From positions 1 to 41,633 of the IMG/VR virus record IMGVR_UViG_3300036766_000655: DNA of 41,633 bases; one strand, written 5' to 3'. Source of the DNA: a virus. The notes below the pieces were generated by a model. It worked only from the letters and a program-made list of their open reading frames with translations. It had not been told where the DNA came from and made no database searches. The position numbers and the translations under genes are program-made. Below are positions 1,937 to 41,633 of the stretch, piece after piece (within the stretch, counting starts at the first letter, position 1; each line of letters opens with the position of its first letter).

Positions 1937-1964
1937 AGTATAGCATTTTAAATTTAAATGTCAA
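1937..1964 (-). promoter_or_regulatory. Sigma70 extended -10 promoter, leftward side of the divergent region
   Basis: Minus strand: TTGACA (1964-1959), 16-base spacer containing TTTAAATTTAAA, TATACT (1942-1937), preceded by TGC. It drives the gene at 1879. Confidence 0.85.
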
Positions 1965-2056: not shown

Positions 2057-2073
2057 TTGGCATGGTTTAAGCA
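2057..2073 (+). promoter_or_regulatory. TTGGCAT-N-GC element L1 (sigma54-like or operator)
   Basis: TTGGCATGGTTTAAGCA. GG (2059-2060) and GC (2071-2072) are ten bases apart, as in sigma54 -24/-12 promoters. The -12 box is AAGC, the poorest of the seven copies. Confidence 0.45.
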
Positions 2074-2113
2074 AGTAAAAAAAGTTAAAATTTCTTTTTT
2101 CACTCTTTTACTT

Positions 2114-2130
2114 TTGGCATGATTGATGCT
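2114..2130 (+). promoter_or_regulatory. TTGGCAT-N-GC element L2
   Basis: TTGGCATGATTGATGCT followed by AA. It has GG-N10-GC spacing and can also be read as an inverted repeat TTGGCA-N7-TGCTAA. Confidence 0.5.
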
Positions 2131-5825: not shown

Positions 5826-6623
5826 ATGGATTTAGAAACATCAGAAAAACTAAAACGTGCTAATGAAGATGGGATAGAACTGTTAAAAAGAAAAATCATA
5901 CAAGAAAAAGACGTAAATTTATTTATTGAGTTTACAATAAAGGATGAAAAAACCGGAACCAAAATAAAACAAGATACAATTCATTTAGCTATGCAGGAAC
6001 ATATTGATTATTGTTTTTCGCATAACATACTTTGCGGGATTCTTGCACCTTGGGGACATGGAAAAACAGGACAAATATTAGCGCGTGGTTTACATGAATT
6101 AGGAATGAATCAGAACATGCGGATAAAAATTTTGTGTAATAATGATTCTACAGCAAAGGCGCGGCTTAACGTTATGGGAAAATATATTGATAAAGATAAA
6201 GACTTTCACAAAATCTTCCCTTCTTGTGTCCCTGAAGATAAAGAAAAATGGAATAGTCACGAATTAATTGTTAAAAGAACAACATTCTCTAAAGATGCTT
6301 CTATTCAATGTTATGGCGTATTATCAAGCGGAATAGGTGGACGTACCGATTTACTTATAGCTGATGATGTTATGGATATGCGAAATTGCATATTGCAACC
6401 AAAATTGAAAAATCAGATAATTGAAACATTCTTCAACACTTGGTTATCTCGCGCAGATGGAATAGACTTTAAGGTTATTTACATTGCTACCGTTTGGACT
6501 GAAGATGATTTAAGTATGCAATTAATTAAAAATCCTGCTTTCTCTTTTCTCCATATGGGTATTAATCAAGGAATTACTGGAATTAGTTGCAAGTATTACA
6601 ATAGGGAATTACAAACTAATTAG
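5826..6623 (+). CDS. terL: Terminase large subunit, ATPase half (split gene, 265 aa)
   Basis: This is the packaging motor ATPase domain only. It has the Walker A APWGHGKT (residues 74-81, like the PRGHGKS type), Walker B with catalytic acid DLLIADD (175-181), and coupling motif ATVWTEDDL (221-229). It ends at residue 265, just where the linker to the nuclease should begin, whereas usual large terminases run 430-600 residues as one chain. The missing C-terminal nuclease is encoded separately at 8268-9005, after four unrelated small genes. The two products probably assemble, or the ATPase works with the nuclease in trans. The ATG follows an A-rich leader with no good Shine-Dalgarno site. Confidence 0.9.
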   Translation: MDLETSEKLKRANEDGIELLKRKIIQEKDVNLFIEFTIKDEKTGTKIKQDTIHLAMQEHIDYCFSHNILCGILAPWGHGKTGQILARGLHELGMNQNMRIKILCNNDSTAKARLNVMGKYIDKDKDFHKIFPSCVPEDKEKWNSHELIVKRTTFSKDASIQCYGVLSSGIGGRTDLLIADDVMDMRNCILQPKLKNQIIETFFNTWLSRADGIDFKVIYIATVWTEDDLSMQLIKNPAFSFLHMGINQGITGISCKYYNRELQTN

Positions 6624-6636
6624 GAAAAAAAAGAAT

Positions 6637-7026
6637 ATGTCAAATCCAATTAAGATTGATTCATTAGTAGGTGGTTCTAATAAATTTTATATTGGACCTT
6701 ATTTAGTTTTAGCTGAATTAAAATTACTATTTTTAAATGATATAATTGCAGATGAAGATGATAATTATTATACTATCATGGTAGGATATGGTGATACAGA
6801 TATAGTATTACTAGAGATTAAAAATAATATTATCTTTAAAGAAAAAGATGGAGTTTTAGATTTTACTTCCTTATTACTTGCTATTATAGAAGATAATCCT
6901 AATCCTTATGTTTCTTTTGCGGAAGGTTTTATTAATTTTTCTATCCTTAAAACTGGCTTACCTACTGGTTTAGAAGGTTCATATTTTATTATGAATCAAT
7001 GGGAAAAAGCAGAATTAGCAGGGTAA
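6637..7026 (+). CDS. Unknown protein A between the terminase halves (129 aa)
   Basis: Unrecognised, acidic, beta-rich protein (IDSLVGGSNKFYIGPYLVLAELKL..., DTDIVLLEIKNNIIF). It starts 13 bases after the terminase ATPase stop and is followed 7 bases later by gene B, so it is part of the late transcript. Base and codon use match the surrounding structural genes (TTA, ATT, GAT rich), giving no sign of recent foreign origin. No nuclease, HNH, GIY-YIG or intron-encoded motif can be seen, which argues against a homing endonuclease as the cause of the split. Role unknown. Confidence 0.8.
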   Translation: MSNPIKIDSLVGGSNKFYIGPYLVLAELKLLFLNDIIADEDDNYYTIMVGYGDTDIVLLEIKNNIIFKEKDGVLDFTSLLLAIIEDNPNPYVSFAEGFINFSILKTGLPTGLEGSYFIMNQWEKAELAG

Positions 7027-7033
7027 TAATAAA

Positions 7034-7429
7034 ATGTCATTAAAAAAGATTATTGATAATTCTTTTGGGATACCACTTATTGTTGATCCTTTATCGTATC
7101 AATATTTTGATTCACTTTTATTTAATCAAAGTGCAAGGGTTTTAAATTCTTGTTTAGTCCCTGAAAAAACTGTTACTGTTCCATTTATGATTACTGCTTT
7201 TAATTGTGGATTTAATTTTGAAAAATATGTTTTAATGGCTAGATTTACAAATATTACAGATGATTTTTTTGTTGAACCTTTTCTAGCTTTTAAAAGAAAT
7301 GATATGAATATTTTTTATGATATTGCTGGGAAAGGTGAATGGTTAGAATTTTTTATCGAAAATTATGATGATACGAATAATGCTGATTTTGGTAATCTTG
7401 CCATTTTTACAGAAATTGAATCATTATAA
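7034..7429 (+). CDS. Unknown protein B between the terminase halves (131 aa)
   Basis: Unrecognised. It is rich in Phe and Asn with alternating hydrophobic strands (VPFMITAFNCGFNFEKYVLM, DFFVEPFLAFKRND) and an acidic C-terminus (ENYDDTNNADFGNLAIF). Length and beta-rich, acidic style resemble neighbours A and C, but I see no clear sequence match among them. The start ATG lies 7 bases after the stop of A. It is likely a small globular protein, perhaps virion-associated or a late modulator of packaging. That is a guess from position alone. Confidence 0.8.
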   Translation: MSLKKIIDNSFGIPLIVDPLSYQYFDSLLFNQSARVLNSCLVPEKTVTVPFMITAFNCGFNFEKYVLMARFTNITDDFFVEPFLAFKRNDMNIFYDIAGKGEWLEFFIENYDDTNNADFGNLAIFTEIESL

Positions 7430-7443
7430 AAGGAGAAAAATTA

Positions 7444-7830
7444 ATGAGTATGCTTAGAGCGTTTGATTATGTTTTTCTTTTTGCTGGCGGAGAAATAGAA
7501 GTTCCTATTTATATCTGCTTTGCAAACGCAAATATTGAATCTATCGTTTTAGCCCACGAAAAAGATGTTCCTGATTCTAATGTATTATATACAGAGTTAC
7601 AAATTATTGATAAAGGATTGGATGGAACAGGAAATGATATTTTGTGGTATGTTACAAATAATCCTGATGATGAAGAACATTTTATTTCTTTAGTTTCTTA
7701 TAAAATGCACGAATTATTATTAAATAAACTAGTTAATAAAAATCATGTTTATACTATGAAAAAAATTGATACTGGCGGGAATATTGAATTAGGAACAACT
7801 AATTTAATTATTAACGAAAGGCGGTATTAA
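7444..7830 (+). CDS. Unknown protein C between the terminase halves (128 aa)
   Basis: Unrecognised. This is the only one of the four inserted genes with a classical ribosome site (AAAAGGAGAAAAATT before ATG 7444). The first part is hydrophobic and beta-rich (FDYVFLFAGGEIEVPIYICF). The middle is acidic (NNPDDEEHF) and the end more basic (VNKNHVYTMKKIDTGG). It shares length and the opening Met-Ser with A and B. No catalytic motif was recognised. Expected to be made late together with the packaging proteins. Confidence 0.8.
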   Translation: MSMLRAFDYVFLFAGGEIEVPIYICFANANIESIVLAHEKDVPDSNVLYTELQIIDKGLDGTGNDILWYVTNNPDDEEHFISLVSYKMHELLLNKLVNKNHVYTMKKIDTGGNIELGTTNLIINERRY

Positions 7831-7834
7831 TACT

Positions 7835-8266
7835 ATGGCTGAACCTATTTTAACAAGTGAACAAAAAAATGAATTAGTTTTAATGATGGATGTTCTTATA
7901 AGTGATATTATTAATTTAGCTGAATATAGTCCTTATTTTATGGCTTTTATTATTAAGGAAGGTAATCAGGAAATTGGATGTAAGGTTAAATTTTACGGTT
8001 GTGAAAAATGTATGAAATTTAATAATATCCAAATGTATGATTGTTCTAAATGCTGGTTTTCATGGTGGATTAATGAAAATCAATCTTCTCAATATCCCGC
8101 TGTTTCAAATAATGATATTAGTATTGCTTTTGGTAATGATATGAATGAAAGAAAAAAACGGGATTATTTTTCATGTTATCCTCTTTTATTTAAAGCCGAG
8201 AAGATGAAGGATAAACAAGTTATTATTGATTGTTATAATGAAATGAAAGCATACTTAGAATTATAA
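7835..8266 (+). CDS. Unknown protein D with two CxxC pairs (143 aa)
   Basis: Unrecognised. It contains CEKC and CSKC about 15 residues apart (within residues 55-75), the pattern of a zinc ribbon or knuckle, followed by WFSWW and then a charged, helical C-terminus. Its stop and the start of the terminase nuclease gene are one base apart (TAAAATG), so translation is coupled. The nuclease half itself carries a Cys cluster (TNCKCGFC), so a zinc-mediated contact between D and the nuclease is conceivable, but that is only a hypothesis. No HNH motif seen. Confidence 0.8.
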   Translation: MAEPILTSEQKNELVLMMDVLISDIINLAEYSPYFMAFIIKEGNQEIGCKVKFYGCEKCMKFNNIQMYDCSKCWFSWWINENQSSQYPAVSNNDISIAFGNDMNERKKRDYFSCYPLLFKAEKMKDKQVIIDCYNEMKAYLEL

Positions 8267-8267
8267 A

Positions 8268-9005
8268 ATGAATTTTAATCAAATAGAAATTCCCCTTTGG
8301 GAAGCTAAATGGGGAAAAGAAGCATTAGAAAAACATTTAGAGAGAGTTGGCCCGATTGCTTTTAACAGGGGACTAAGAAATATTGCACTTAGTTCTAAAG
8401 ATTCTACTTTTCCTTCATTTGAAAAATGTATAAAGAAAGAATTAAAGATTCAAGAAGTTCTTACAGATAATTGTTTATTATATTCTGGAGTAGATTTATC
8501 AACTAAGAAAAGGCCGGGAACTTGTATTTTTACTTTAGCAAACGATAGAAAAAGAAAATTATATATTCCTGTTGATATTAGATATGGCAAATGGACCGGA
8601 CCAAAGTTATTAGAACAAATATATTTAGTTCAAGAACAATATTCACCTAAATCGTTTCTTGTAGAAAATAATGCTTTACAGGATATGGTAATTGATTTTT
8701 TAAAGGAAGATGTTAAAAAAGGAAAACATTCCTCATCCCCTTTCATTAAAGGACATTTTACGGGTTCAAACAAGTTAGATTTAGATAATGGAGTTGATTC
8801 ATTGGAAGTAGATTTTTATAATGATAGATGGATAATTGCATTAGGAGATAAAGAGCATAAGACTAACTGTAAATGCGGATTTTGTAAATGGCAAGATGAA
8901 ATGAATGGACATCCATTTTATGAAACTACAGATAGCGTAATGGCTTGCTGGCTTGCTAAAGAAAATGCTAGAAAATCTATGTCAGGAAGAATTAGAATAT
9001 TATGA
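8268..9005 (+). CDS. terL: Terminase large subunit, nuclease half (split gene, 245 aa)
   Basis: RNase H-fold nuclease domain of the large terminase, which cuts concatemeric DNA during packaging. Acidic metal-binding residues are visible: Asp77 in YSGVDLSTKKRPG, Glu133 in FLVENNALQD and Asp222 in TTDSVMACWLAKENAR. The N-terminus (IPLWEAKWGKEALEKHLERV, GPIAFNRGLRNIA) is the usual linker that follows the ATPase domain, so the two halves together make one complete terminase of about 510 residues. An inserted Cys cluster (C201, C203, C206) lies between the second and third acids. The gene ends in TGA overlapping the next ATG. Confidence 0.88.
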   Translation: MNFNQIEIPLWEAKWGKEALEKHLERVGPIAFNRGLRNIALSSKDSTFPSFEKCIKKELKIQEVLTDNCLLYSGVDLSTKKRPGTCIFTLANDRKRKLYIPVDIRYGKWTGPKLLEQIYLVQEQYSPKSFLVENNALQDMVIDFLKEDVKKGKHSSSPFIKGHFTGSNKLDLDNGVDSLEVDFYNDRWIIALGDKEHKTNCKCGFCKWQDEMNGHPFYETTDSVMACWLAKENARKSMSGRIRIL

Positions 9006-16762: not shown

Positions 16763-17785
16763 ATGTTTACAAATTATCAAACTACATTAGGTATAGGAAG
16801 GGCAAATAATTGGCAAAGTCCTGTTATTTGCACTAAGTATTTAATGATTTTGTCTGAATCTATAGAAAAGGTAGATAAAGTAGTAGGCGATTTATCTTGT
16901 GGCTTGCCATATTCTTATGAACAAAGATTATCAAATATTGAATGTTTAGGACCACTAGCGACATATTTACATTATTTTAAAAATGGTGAAAATAATAGTT
17001 TAATATATTTAATTTCTATGGCTATGGGAAATTCAGTAGTATCGCAAATAGGAACTACCGGAATATATCAAAGGATAATAACATTAGATACTAATATAGC
17101 ACAAAAAGTTTTAACTTTAGCCATTGATAAAATTACTAGCATACATGAATTAGGAACAGTAAAAATAAATGGTTTTAAAATTACTGGTACTATTGGACAA
17201 TTAATAACAGTTGAATTTAGTATTATATCAAATAATAGAATTATTGATTCTGCTATAAATACTAAAGTTGTTATTGATGGTTTAGCGTTATCGCAAATTT
17301 TAGAATCAGACAATTTAATTCCCTTAACTTTAAATACTGCTACTTGTGAAATTGGAGAATATAATACATTAAGAAGTGAATTTGGTATTTCATCATTTGA
17401 AATAGTTTTTAATCGTGGCTTATCATACGATTTTGTTTCTAATGGTTTTGAATCTTTAGAACCTATAGAAGATGGACAACCATCTTTCCAGTTTAATGTT
17501 ACTATGGATTATTATAATGTAAAAGATTTTATTTCTAAATATAATTCAAGAACAATTTGTGATTCTGTTTTAAAATTTTTAGGAAATTATATTTCAGATG
17601 GATATAGTAATGGATGGATTTTTCAATTTAATAGAATGGTACTAGTAAATGAAACAGATATAATTAATAATGCAGGGCTACAGCCTTTAACTTTAAAGTT
17701 TATTCCAATTGCAGATGAAGATTTTGGAAATATTAATCCGTTAAGAATTTTTATTACTGGTAAGGAACATGAAAATATTAGTTAA
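16763..17785 (+). CDS. Tail tube-like protein, first paralogue (340 aa)
   Basis: A paralogue of the next gene. Shared segments include KVLTLAIDKITSIHELGTVK / GLFATYAVDKILKVHEIPSLK, GFKITG / GFTISG, SSFEIVFNRGL / SSFEIEFNRNL, and EPIEDGQP / EPEQAGQP. These mark the Phage_tube_2-type tail tube family (beta-barrel rings stacked into the tail). This copy is more diverged and has no strong ribosome site, so it may be a minor or specialised ring, for example at the tail end. It is preceded by an A-rich gap of only four bases and translated from the same transcript. Confidence 0.75.
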   Translation: MFTNYQTTLGIGRANNWQSPVICTKYLMILSESIEKVDKVVGDLSCGLPYSYEQRLSNIECLGPLATYLHYFKNGENNSLIYLISMAMGNSVVSQIGTTGIYQRIITLDTNIAQKVLTLAIDKITSIHELGTVKINGFKITGTIGQLITVEFSIISNNRIIDSAINTKVVIDGLALSQILESDNLIPLTLNTATCEIGEYNTLRSEFGISSFEIVFNRGLSYDFVSNGFESLEPIEDGQPSFQFNVTMDYYNVKDFISKYNSRTICDSVLKFLGNYISDGYSNGWIFQFNRMVLVNETDIINNAGLQPLTLKFIPIADEDFGNINPLRIFITGKEHENIS

Positions 17786-39873: not shown

Positions 39874-40131
39874 TCAATCTTCTAGCCTATCAAATTCTAC
39901 TTCCCCTGATTCAATGTTAAGCCTTACAAAGCCTTTTAAAATGGTCCATCCTTCCCCAAGTTCCTTGTTTCCGCTTGCTTCTATGCGGTCCTGCTTTGTC
40001 TGCAATCCCTTTCTTGAACTACTCCTAACTGTTACGGCCCCGTTTTTTGCAATATAAACCGGAATATCAAAGCATGTTTCATTTTCGCTAATCCTTACTA
40101 ATCCTAGCTTATCCGCTTTCCCCTTTTTCAT
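39874..40131 (-). CDS. Hypothetical protein (85 aa)
   Basis: Start at ATG 40131 (MKKGKADKLGLVRISENETC) since GAAAGGGGAAACAG lies upstream; the frame to 40158 (TTG) is not needed. Beta-rich with an interesting regularity (CFDIPVYIAKNGAVTVRSSS; GWTILKGFVRLNIESGEVEF), possibly a small beta-barrel. The gene sits after the SprT-like gene's terminator and lacks an obvious own promoter, so readthrough is needed unless a weak promoter is hidden in the CTTTAAAG-rich gap. Function unknown. Confidence 0.75.
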   Translation of the reverse strand: MKKGKADKLGLVRISENETCFDIPVYIAKNGAVTVRSSSRKGLQTKQDRIEASGNKELGEGWTILKGFVRLNIESGEVEFDRLED

Positions 40132-40178
40132 CCTGTTTCCCCTTTCTGCTTTTTTCAAACTTTAAAGTTAATAAAAAA

Positions 40179-40206
40179 TAGACTAGCGGATTAATCCGCT
40201 AGTCTA
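40179..40206 (-). terminator. Perfect 28-base palindrome, terminator overlapping the SprT-like stop codon
   Basis: TAGACTAGCGGATT and its exact complement. On the minus strand it is followed by ATTTTTTATT, so it should end transcripts of the SprT-like gene. The stop TAA lies in the loop. Confidence 0.92.
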
Positions 40207-40811
40207 AATTTCGTATGACAAATATCACAAGTTGCGGAAAATTCATTTACTTTCGCTACCCTAACAATCATCCCGCAATCGCAAACAAATTTCCGCAAGT
40301 AGGTATATTGCTTAGGTCCATCCATTCTATGAAGTTGAAAAAGTTCCATATTAGCACTAAGCAACTTTTCAATTTCTTTTCCAGTATCATTAAGGCTAGT
40401 AAAACAGAATCCATAAGTTTTATCCTGTTGAACTTTCAAACCGTGATTTTCTGCAACTTCTTTAAATTTGCGGTTGTGATATTGATTACTGCAACAATCC
40501 TTCACGCCTTGCTGATTATTGAAATTATGAACCATTTCATGTAACATAATTTCTACCGGATTATGTCTATTTAAATCTTCCGCGCAAATGGTTAATTCTG
40601 AAACAAAGCAATTATTTATATCATCTTTCCATCTTTTCGGAGCAAAAAAACCAATAGCCTTTTTAATTCTTCCTTTGGTTTGAATCATAATTCTAACATT
40701 CTGGTCTAACTGGTTATCATACATTTTTTCATTAATGATATGATACCATCTTTCAAGTTCTTGCGTTATCTCTACTATCGAATTTTTAAAAATGGCTTTC
40801 TGCTTATTCAT
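40191..40811 (-). CDS. SprT-like zinc metallopeptidase (206 aa)
   Basis: Catalytic HEMVH at residues 91-95, with the third zinc ligand expected in the downstream NQYHNRKFKEVAENHG segment. A C-terminal zinc ribbon has CDCG (about 174-177) and CDIC (194-197). The family (SprT/Spartan) includes DNA-dependent proteases that clear DNA-protein crosslinks, which would suit a phage replication block; regulated host proteolysis is another possibility. ATG 40811 follows AAAGGGGAAACAG. Promoter at 40897-40870, terminator at 40179-40206, so this is an autonomous unit. The first part (residues 1-45) is a helix with basic patches. Confidence 0.88.
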   Translation of the reverse strand: MNKQKAIFKNSIVEITQELERWYHIINEKMYDNQLDQNVRIMIQTKGRIKKAIGFFAPKRWKDDINNCFVSELTICAEDLNRHNPVEIMLHEMVHNFNNQQGVKDCCSNQYHNRKFKEVAENHGLKVQQDKTYGFCFTSLNDTGKEIEKLLSANMELFQLHRMDGPKQYTYLRKFVCDCGMIVRVAKVNEFSATCDICHTKFRLAD

Positions 40812-40869: not shown

Positions 40870-40897
40870 AGTCTAGCACAAAATTTTTATTTGTCAA
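40870..40897 (-). promoter_or_regulatory. Sigma70 promoter of the SprT-like gene
   Basis: Minus strand: TTGACA (40897-40892), 16-base spacer, TAGACT (40875-40870), preceded by TGC. Identical for about 20 bases to the promoter at 2669, pointing to recent duplication or gene conversion. Confidence 0.82.
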
Positions 40898-40931
40898 GTT
40901 TTTTCTTTACTTTTTTTAAACTTTTTTTGTA

Positions 40932-40965
40932 AGCAATAAACATGCCATAGCAAGAATCATGCCAA
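40932..40965 (-). promoter_or_regulatory. TTGGCAT-N-GC elements R1 and R2, tandem
   Basis: Minus strand: TTGGCATGATTCTTGCT (R2) directly followed by ATGGCATGTTTATTGCT (R1). Both have GG-N10-GC and a TTGC -12 box, matching the sigma54 consensus TGGCAc-N5-TTGC except C to T. They point toward the SprT-like gene. Confidence 0.55.
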
Positions 40966-41046: not shown

Positions 41047-41150
41047 TAACTTATTGATTTTGTTGCGGATTCATTCTAAGCCTTTTACAGACATTTTTAT
41101 TTATATGTCCATATGGTTCTAGCCTTATTTTGTAACTTATTGATTTTGTT
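41047..41150. repeat. Direct repeat TAACTTATTGATTTTGTT, two copies
   Basis: Identical 18-mers at 41047-41064 and 41133-41150, 86 bases apart. Inverted relatives (AATAAAATCAAT) lie at 2219 and 2314 in the other control region. Confidence 0.85.
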
Positions 41151-41208: not shown

Positions 41209-41225
41209 TGCATAAGTTATGCCAA
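41209..41225 (-). promoter_or_regulatory. TTGGCAT-N-GC element R3
   Basis: Minus strand CTTGGCATAACTTATGCA. GG-N10-GC; the -12 box is ATGC. Overlaps the palindrome GCATAAGTTATGC. Confidence 0.45.
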
Positions 41226-41268: not shown

Positions 41269-41285
41269 TTGGCATGGTCCTTGCT
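41269..41285 (+). promoter_or_regulatory. TTGGCAT-N-GC element R4
   Basis: Plus strand TTGGCATGGTCCTTGCT, GG-N10-GC with a TTGC -12 box. It is the only element in this gap on the plus strand and points at the 3' end of the junction-crossing gene. Confidence 0.5.
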
Positions 41286-41334: not shown

Positions 41335-41351
41335 GGCAAGTTCTATGCCAA
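41335..41351 (-). promoter_or_regulatory. TTGGCAT-N-GC element R5
   Basis: Minus strand TTTGGCATAGAACTTGCC. GG-N10-GC with TTGC. It overlaps the stop codon (TTG GCA TAG) of the junction-crossing gene. Confidence 0.5.
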
Positions 41352-41633
41352 AATTTCAGAAATTAATTTATGTCTATTCAGAATATAAGGTTCATGATTT
41401 TGGTTTTTTCTACTAGCCATATAATCAGCAAGGTAAAGAATCAATTCATTTAGTGAATAGTTATAAATAGATTTTTTAAATTCGCTAGGTGTAAAAATTC
41501 CAGAATGAAATTTTATTAGATTAACTAATTCTGTCTGGTCCTGCTTTTCAATTTCATTTAGTAGAATGATATTTTCATCAATGTAAGATTGAACTATTAA
41601 AGAAGCTATGAAAGGATGATTTTTATAATCATC
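41343..41633 (-). CDS. 3' part of the junction-crossing hypothetical protein (96 aa here)
   Basis: Open from the window edge to TAG 41345-41343. The visible protein starts DDYKNHPFIASLIVQSYIDE and continues helical (NEIEKQDQTELVNLIKFHSG, FTPSEFKKSIYNYSLNELIL), ending HKLISEILA. It has no start codon inside the window, and its phase joins exactly to the open frame at the left edge (126-1), so the whole gene is probably about 138 residues on a circular genome. Family not recognised; helical and acidic, possibly a small regulator. It would be read from the left end of the early block. Confidence 0.72.
   Translation of the reverse strand, partial: DDYKNHPFIASLIVQSYIDENIILLNEIEKQDQTELVNLIKFHSGIFTPSEFKKSIYNYSLNELILYLADYMASRKNQNHEPYILNRHKLISEILA

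Follow-up and report, generated by a model that had tools for sequence, protein, structure and literature searches.

Seven short elements in the control region of a putative tailed phage are best explained as -24/-12 (sigma54, RpoN) sites that would be bound by the sigma54-RNA polymerase of the host, a reading given a probability of roughly 0.55. Single-locus arrays of similar sites of the sigma54 type are found again and again in phages, some of them in lineages for which no protein kinship was detected, and this recurrence is the part of the result worth following. The evidence consists of sequence identity with sigma54 sites, exact internal spacing, placement in gaps, and recurrence with stereotyped geometry in unrelated phages. 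From the DNA alone, the sigma54-type identity of the seven sites is well supported, while active-promoter function is unproven.

The window, meaning the whole stretch of DNA that was analysed, is an IMG/VR virus contig of 41,633 bases with a GC content of about 25-34%. By PHROGs assignment, its rightward arm encodes terminase pieces, a portal with a head-morphogenesis region, a maturation protease, the major head protein, a head-tail adaptor, a tape measure and an amidase, and its leftward arm starts with an SprT-like gene and includes a primase-helicase and an SNF2-type helicase. The stretch 732-1879 holds four small ORFs, all leftward. ARAGORN found no tRNA genes in the window, no integrase was recognised among the window proteins scanned, and the contig is read as a tailed phage. 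The middle of the window has no DNA kin among named phages, and tblastn against these gave weak matches for primase and portal only. When the contig ends are joined, the right-end ORF continues for about 40 open codons into positions 1-120, weakly suggesting that the genome is circular or permuted, in which case all seven sites would fall within about 2.8 kb. No close homologues of the SprT-like gene or of the right-end ORF were found in viral contigs. The coordinates of the sites, the two genes and the neighbouring sigma70-type promoters are collected in the table.

Table. Sigma54-type sites and adjoining features of the window (scores and ranks refer to the Salmonella matrix described in the text)
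Feature	Position	Strand	Basis or score
Site 1, TTGGCATGGTTTAAGC	2057..2072	+	Score 13.9, rank 8
Site 2, TTGGCATGATTGATGC	2114..2129	+	Score 18.3, rank 4
Site 3, TGGCATGTTTATTGC	40933..40947	-	Score 19.1, rank 3
Site 4, TTGGCATGATTCTTGC	40950..40965	-	Score 21.5, rank 2
Site 5, TTGGCATAACTTATGC	41210..41225	-	Score 17.1, rank 6
Site 6, TTGGCATGGTCCTTGC	41269..41284	+	Score 22.2, rank 1
Site 7, TTGGCATAGAACTTGC, overlaps stop of ORF 41343-41633(-)	41336..41351	-	Score 17.9, rank 5
Sigma70-type promoter TTGACA ... TATACT of leftward gene 1673-1879; -35 begins 92 bases from site 1	1937..1964	-	11/12 matches
Sigma70-type promoter TTGACA ... TAGACT before SprT-like gene; -35 begins 34 bases past sites 3-4	40870..40898	-	10/12 matches
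SprT-like gene, first of leftward arm	40191..40811	-	Pfam SprT-like, E 4.9e-05, below curated cut-off; phrog_6361
ORF without assigned function, open at contig end, stop overlaps site 7	41343..41633	-	ORF call

Several other features of the window were recorded alongside the sites. Matches to the terminase large subunit (within 5826-9005) fall in two separate ORFs, 5826-6623 and 8268-9005, and the four small ORFs between these pieces are not alike by BLAST; at least the start of this arrangement is also found in the relative G001 (L014 7303-8953). At 417-597, a 15-base unit is repeated, and its minus strand presumably encodes a pentapeptide-repeat protein with ANLQD units. The palindrome AACTTTAAAGTT occurs exactly at 17689, 18867, 35947, 38826 and 40158 and in six near copies, so that 11 copies with at most one mismatch stand against 1.2 expected; it is present in G001 too and is probably the operator of another regulator.

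The fixed GG-N10-GC spacing reported in the preliminary description was borne out, as all seven sites share the pattern TGGCAT-N7-GC with a spacing of ten. When TGGCAT followed by GC was counted at GG-GC spacings from 5 to 15, spacing 10 gave seven occurrences, spacing 7 two, spacing 12 one, spacing 14 three, and the rest none. Among 200 first-order Markov copies of the window, spacing-10 counts were zero in 125, one in 54, two in 18, three in 2 and four in 1 (mean 0.5), and seven was never reached. With one mismatch allowed, the short word TTGGCATNGC alone occurs 7 times against 5.7 expected and is not enriched; what carries the signal is the GG-N10-GC pair. Though this lack of enrichment would suit chance or a sequence artefact, that explanation is scarcely credible against the Markov copies and against the recurrence of the sites in other phages, where a control spacing failed. 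A weak eighth site lies at 2608(+).

Gaps make up 12.7% of the window under the ORF set used here, and six of the seven sites lie in them, with the remaining one overlapping a stop codon, as had been described, so that the sites as a whole fall into two control gaps; the earlier count of four sites with TTGC also holds. The statement that six of seven are aimed at the genes they face stands as geometry, but closer promoters of the TTGACA/TATAAT type serve the nearest genes. In addition, the gene that site 41269(+) faces runs the opposite way, so that the site aims at its 3' end. Sites 1 and 2 sit at least 92 bases behind a leftward sigma70-type promoter.

The proposed resemblance to sigma54 promoters was examined with the position-matrix search that the preliminary description had suggested, using a matrix from 29 intergenic Salmonella sigma54 ChIP-chip sites (PMC3844500). 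With both strands of the window scanned, the seven sites all fell within the top eight, at ranks 1-6 and 8 with scores of 22.2-13.9. The 29 training sites score 15.9-24.4; six of the seven sites fall within this bound-site range, and site 2057 (13.9) falls below it. Rank 7 belongs to a site in coding sequence (38194), and the next score after the top eight is 10.8. In 30 shuffles, the best single site had a mean of 14.6 and a maximum of 20.6, and the seventh best had a mean of 9.4 and a maximum of 10.7. At a score of at least 16, the window contains six sites, whereas 23 further viral loci (L184-L205, L005), together 202,772 bp, contain one. Two window sites match 12 of 13 positions of the sigma54 consensus YTGGCACGNNNNTTGCW, where 0.01 would be expected. 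Variants with TGGCAT are also found among Salmonella sites such as hydH, hycA and hypA (PMC3844500).

An alternative offered earlier, a dyad operator TTGGCA-N7-TGCnAA within each single site, found no support: the left half is invariant and the right half diverges, with the C after GC needed for symmetry in only one of seven sites, so that the halves are asymmetric. With respect to iterons, which stay a possible reading, the sites of the window are irregularly spaced and lie in both orientations, and no initiator was recognised in the subset of ORFs scanned. Separately, the repeat AAAATCAATA occurs twice on the plus strand, at about 2220 and 2313, and twice on the minus strand, at about 41047 and 41133 (within 2170-2345 and 41047-41150), and the first gap (2170-2345) contains the inverted repeat AAGGCTATTTAAGACTAG; these are possible origin features.

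A pair pattern modelled on sites 1 and 2 was found in three viral contigs, G006, G007 and G008, of which the first two are identical over 18,659 bases and the third is 65-78% alike to both in DNA pieces. Their gaps contain TTTTGGCATNNTATTTGCT as well as TTTGGCACGATATTTGCT, which agrees with the consensus at every position, and tblastn of most of G006 and G007 and all of G008 against the window proteins gave no matches at 0.01. Many CTGCCATTTTGGCAG palindromes were also seen in the gaps of G006 (L025 3700-5200), beside sigma54-type sites. A wider search for pairs of TTGGCAY-N5-TTGC returned at least 120 stretches in viral contigs, compared with 22 when the spacing was made one base longer. The two sets differ in placement. 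In 20 of the 22 control stretches, every site lies inside ORFs of at least 100 aa, as do 49 of 53 control sites overall, whereas only 91 of 318 array sites (from 80 of the at least 120 loci) do so, in DNA of which 69% is taken up by ORFs of that length. Every site lies inside such ORFs in 18 of the 80 array loci, and some of these ORFs are spurious. The view that sigma54 arrays would be unusual in phages therefore needs revising, given how widespread these stretches with site pairs are in viral contigs.

The positions left free by the search follow sigma54. Among 444 unique sites in the 116 loci listed, the base after CAY is G in 74% and C in 0%, the next is a purine in 81%, and TTGC is followed by A or T in 93%. 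Four loci judged by eye to be coding repeats (L071, L106, L134, L108) were left out of this analysis and of those of geometry, promoters, protein families, lineages and the matrix. The array loci listed form 40 lineages if two shared ORFs are required to join loci, and 17 if one is enough, the largest group then holding 100 loci. One locus scanned from a large array group names terminase, portal, primase/helicase and thymidylate synthase, identifying the carriers as phages. Against named phages, the array loci have no DNA kin, their terminases give weak matches, and two other array-phage proteins give none. Each of ten large contigs (47-178 kb) has its strict sites confined to a single locus of at most about 10 kb, and the reversed pattern is absent. 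One stretch, L110 1-6511, holds 40 sigma54-type sites (at least 11/13) in 6.5 kb; it belongs to a viral contig of 147 kb, and none of the ORFs in its non-overlapping set exceeds 165 aa.

For a positive control, the search turned to cellular genomes. In the cell-genome collection, 32 loci carry the pair pattern of sites 1 and 2, most of which are tandem DNA repeats or coding repeats as judged by eye. Three were judged genuine (L035, L045, L052), with HSP20, HSP20, and FlgI and FlgM as the Pfam genes. Two Poribacteria have tandem sites before hsp20, and Mucispirillum has two tandem sites directly before flgI and one before flgM nearby. Flagellar genes are classic sigma54 targets. Thus, tandem TTTTGGCAT-N5-TTGC resembles such promoters in some bacteria.

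Among close relatives of the window, the pattern is different. G001 (42,299 bases), the nearest relative among the contigs compared, has 75-81% protein identity to the window in the helicase, the portal and a terminase piece, and contains no strict-pattern sites over its whole record and no matrix sites in the parts compared. It has a counterpart of 2.0-4.6 kb without sites there, and the contig breaks off within the homologue of 39874-40158, leaving 40.2-41.6 kb of the window without a counterpart. Likewise, no sites with a matrix score of at least 16 were found in nine loci from phages close to the window. The preliminary description had named lack of conservation in relatives as a test; the sites are absent from G001 in the parts compared, and the region of sites 3-7 falls beyond the end of that contig. 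On these comparisons, the sites appear not to be conserved in the close lineage. Together with the good sigma70-type promoters owned by the genes at the gaps, the absence from the compared parts of G001 speaks against the preferred sigma54 reading.

In other phages, neighbouring sites comprise 216 same-direction, 99 convergent and 93 divergent pairs, each locus in this count having been chosen for a same-direction pair. Convergent pairs are 30-34 bp apart in 81 of 99 cases, divergent pairs lie at 8-13 or 23-24 bp in 67 of 93, and same-direction pairs lie at 25-29 bp in 79 and at 35-39 bp in 41 of 216, with peaks at 26-28 and 36-38 bp. When the largest group is set aside, 20 convergent pairs are left, of which 12 are at 31-33 bp, with 8 groups represented. 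The distances fit a helical period of 10.3 bp with same-direction neighbours on roughly opposite faces (P values are nominal, as the loci are related). The same-direction distances in the window, 57 and 17, both occur in this series. The window has no close convergent pair, and no convergent pair spaced like 41269/41336 was found in viral contigs. The mixed orientation in other phages disfavours simple tandem promoters, and steering of adjacent sigma70-type promoters and titration are therefore kept as readings.

This geometry bears on a rather unlikely alternative, in which the sites form an operator or nucleoprotein array for a DNA-binding protein of phage or host other than sigma54, with an accidental likeness to -24/-12 elements, and regulate adjacent sigma70-type promoters or serve a replication origin. 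Such a protein would suit the stereotyped, helically phased distances. It would also suit the sigma70-type promoters (at least 10/12 matches) at 294 array edges, edges of the window, G006 and G008 included, where 40 face outward and 11 inward, and the G006 lineage, where the -35 is mostly 30-31 bases away from the edge of the array. Most sites in that lineage aim away from adjacent genes, as plain tandem promoters would not. An accidental likeness, on the other hand, sits poorly with the match of the search-free positions to sigma54 and with the flagellar and heat-shock promoters found as the non-repeat bacterial matches. In addition, no regulator family common to the array lineages was seen in the loci listed, where only the terminase family links lineages near arrays (10 lineages, the next families reaching 3).

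No phage-encoded reader of the sigma54 type was detected, as none of the 52 records from array phages and their relatives has the sigma54 DNA-binding domain (PF04552). The activator domain (PF00158) exceeds the curated cut-off in 1 of the 52 (G019, 223 kb, at 143430-143810), and in the window it gives a weak match of 12.2 bits inside the primase-helicase ORF. The T7-type phage RNA polymerase (PF00940) was found in 0 of 21 records, but also in 0 of 14 control genomes, so little is proven by its absence. The simplest reader is a host factor that many bacteria share, and the site matches that of sigma54. With neither sigma54 nor, in nearly all records, an activator by Pfam, activation would depend wholly on the host, and its timing would follow host nitrogen, stress or motility signals.

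The scarcity of phage activators would also fit a sink, in which arrays trap host sigma54 polymerase in closed complexes and leave the sigma54 promoters of the host, such as those for phage shock, nitrogen and motility, short of it. The confinement of arrays to one locus in all ten large contigs, the crowded L110 stretch and the mixed site orientation point the same way. A sink is nevertheless improbable for the window, which has just seven sites, and it would not require the fixed distances to sigma70-type promoters seen in one lineage.

In the preferred reading, that of host sigma54 polymerase binding at -24/-12 sites, the sites adjoin ordinary promoters of the sigma70 type, both where the replication arm begins and in the space separating the divergent arms. 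Polymerase bound there would, when a host activator is on, start transcripts from four sites towards the replication arm and from two towards the structural arm; when the activator is off, the parked polymerase may affect the adjacent sigma70-type promoters. A broader proposal, which is possible but held as doubtful, is that many phage lineages carry single-locus, helically phased arrays for host sigma54 polymerase with bidirectional convergent pairs, seizing or redirecting host sigma54 transcription early in infection, and that the window is a small version.

Phage transcription is usually ascribed to the sigma70 of the host or to sigma factors or polymerases of the phage, and similar clusters in unrelated phages suggest an overlooked way to use or capture host transcription. 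No report of phage sigma54-site arrays was found in the literature searched, the nearest published case being a phage protein weakly similar to sigma54 (PMC7693777). If the reading is true, a widespread class of phage loci dense in sigma54 sites would link infection to host circuits for nitrogen, envelope stress and motility and would offer a sequence signature for predicting rpoN-bearing hosts. Additionally, they would be natural dense sigma54 arrays with spacing rules open to tests with purified parts.

Among known systems, phage stoperators and iterons, as in mycobacteriophage L5 and plasmid origins, are repeated asymmetric sites in intergenic DNA. The window and array sites share these three properties, but differ in their sigma54 consensus, in their mixed orientation and, in the ten large contigs, in their confinement to one locus. 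Bidirectional sigma70 promoters offer a second comparison. Convergent sigma54-type pairs 31-34 bp apart would, by arithmetic with a start 12 bases past GC, place opposite-strand starts 16-19 bp apart, and known bidirectional promoters favour 18 bp between starts (PMC10268837). Unlike those promoters, the arrays have -24/-12 elements rather than a symmetrical -10, the starts here are predicted only, and the window has no such pair. A third comparison is with bacterial sigma54 (RpoN) promoters, with which the sites share TGGCAY-G-N4-TTGCW and the ten bases from GG to GC. In contrast to these promoters, the window sites cluster in a phage control region beside sigma70-type promoters and without a phage activator, and those of other phages form dense arrays of mixed orientation.
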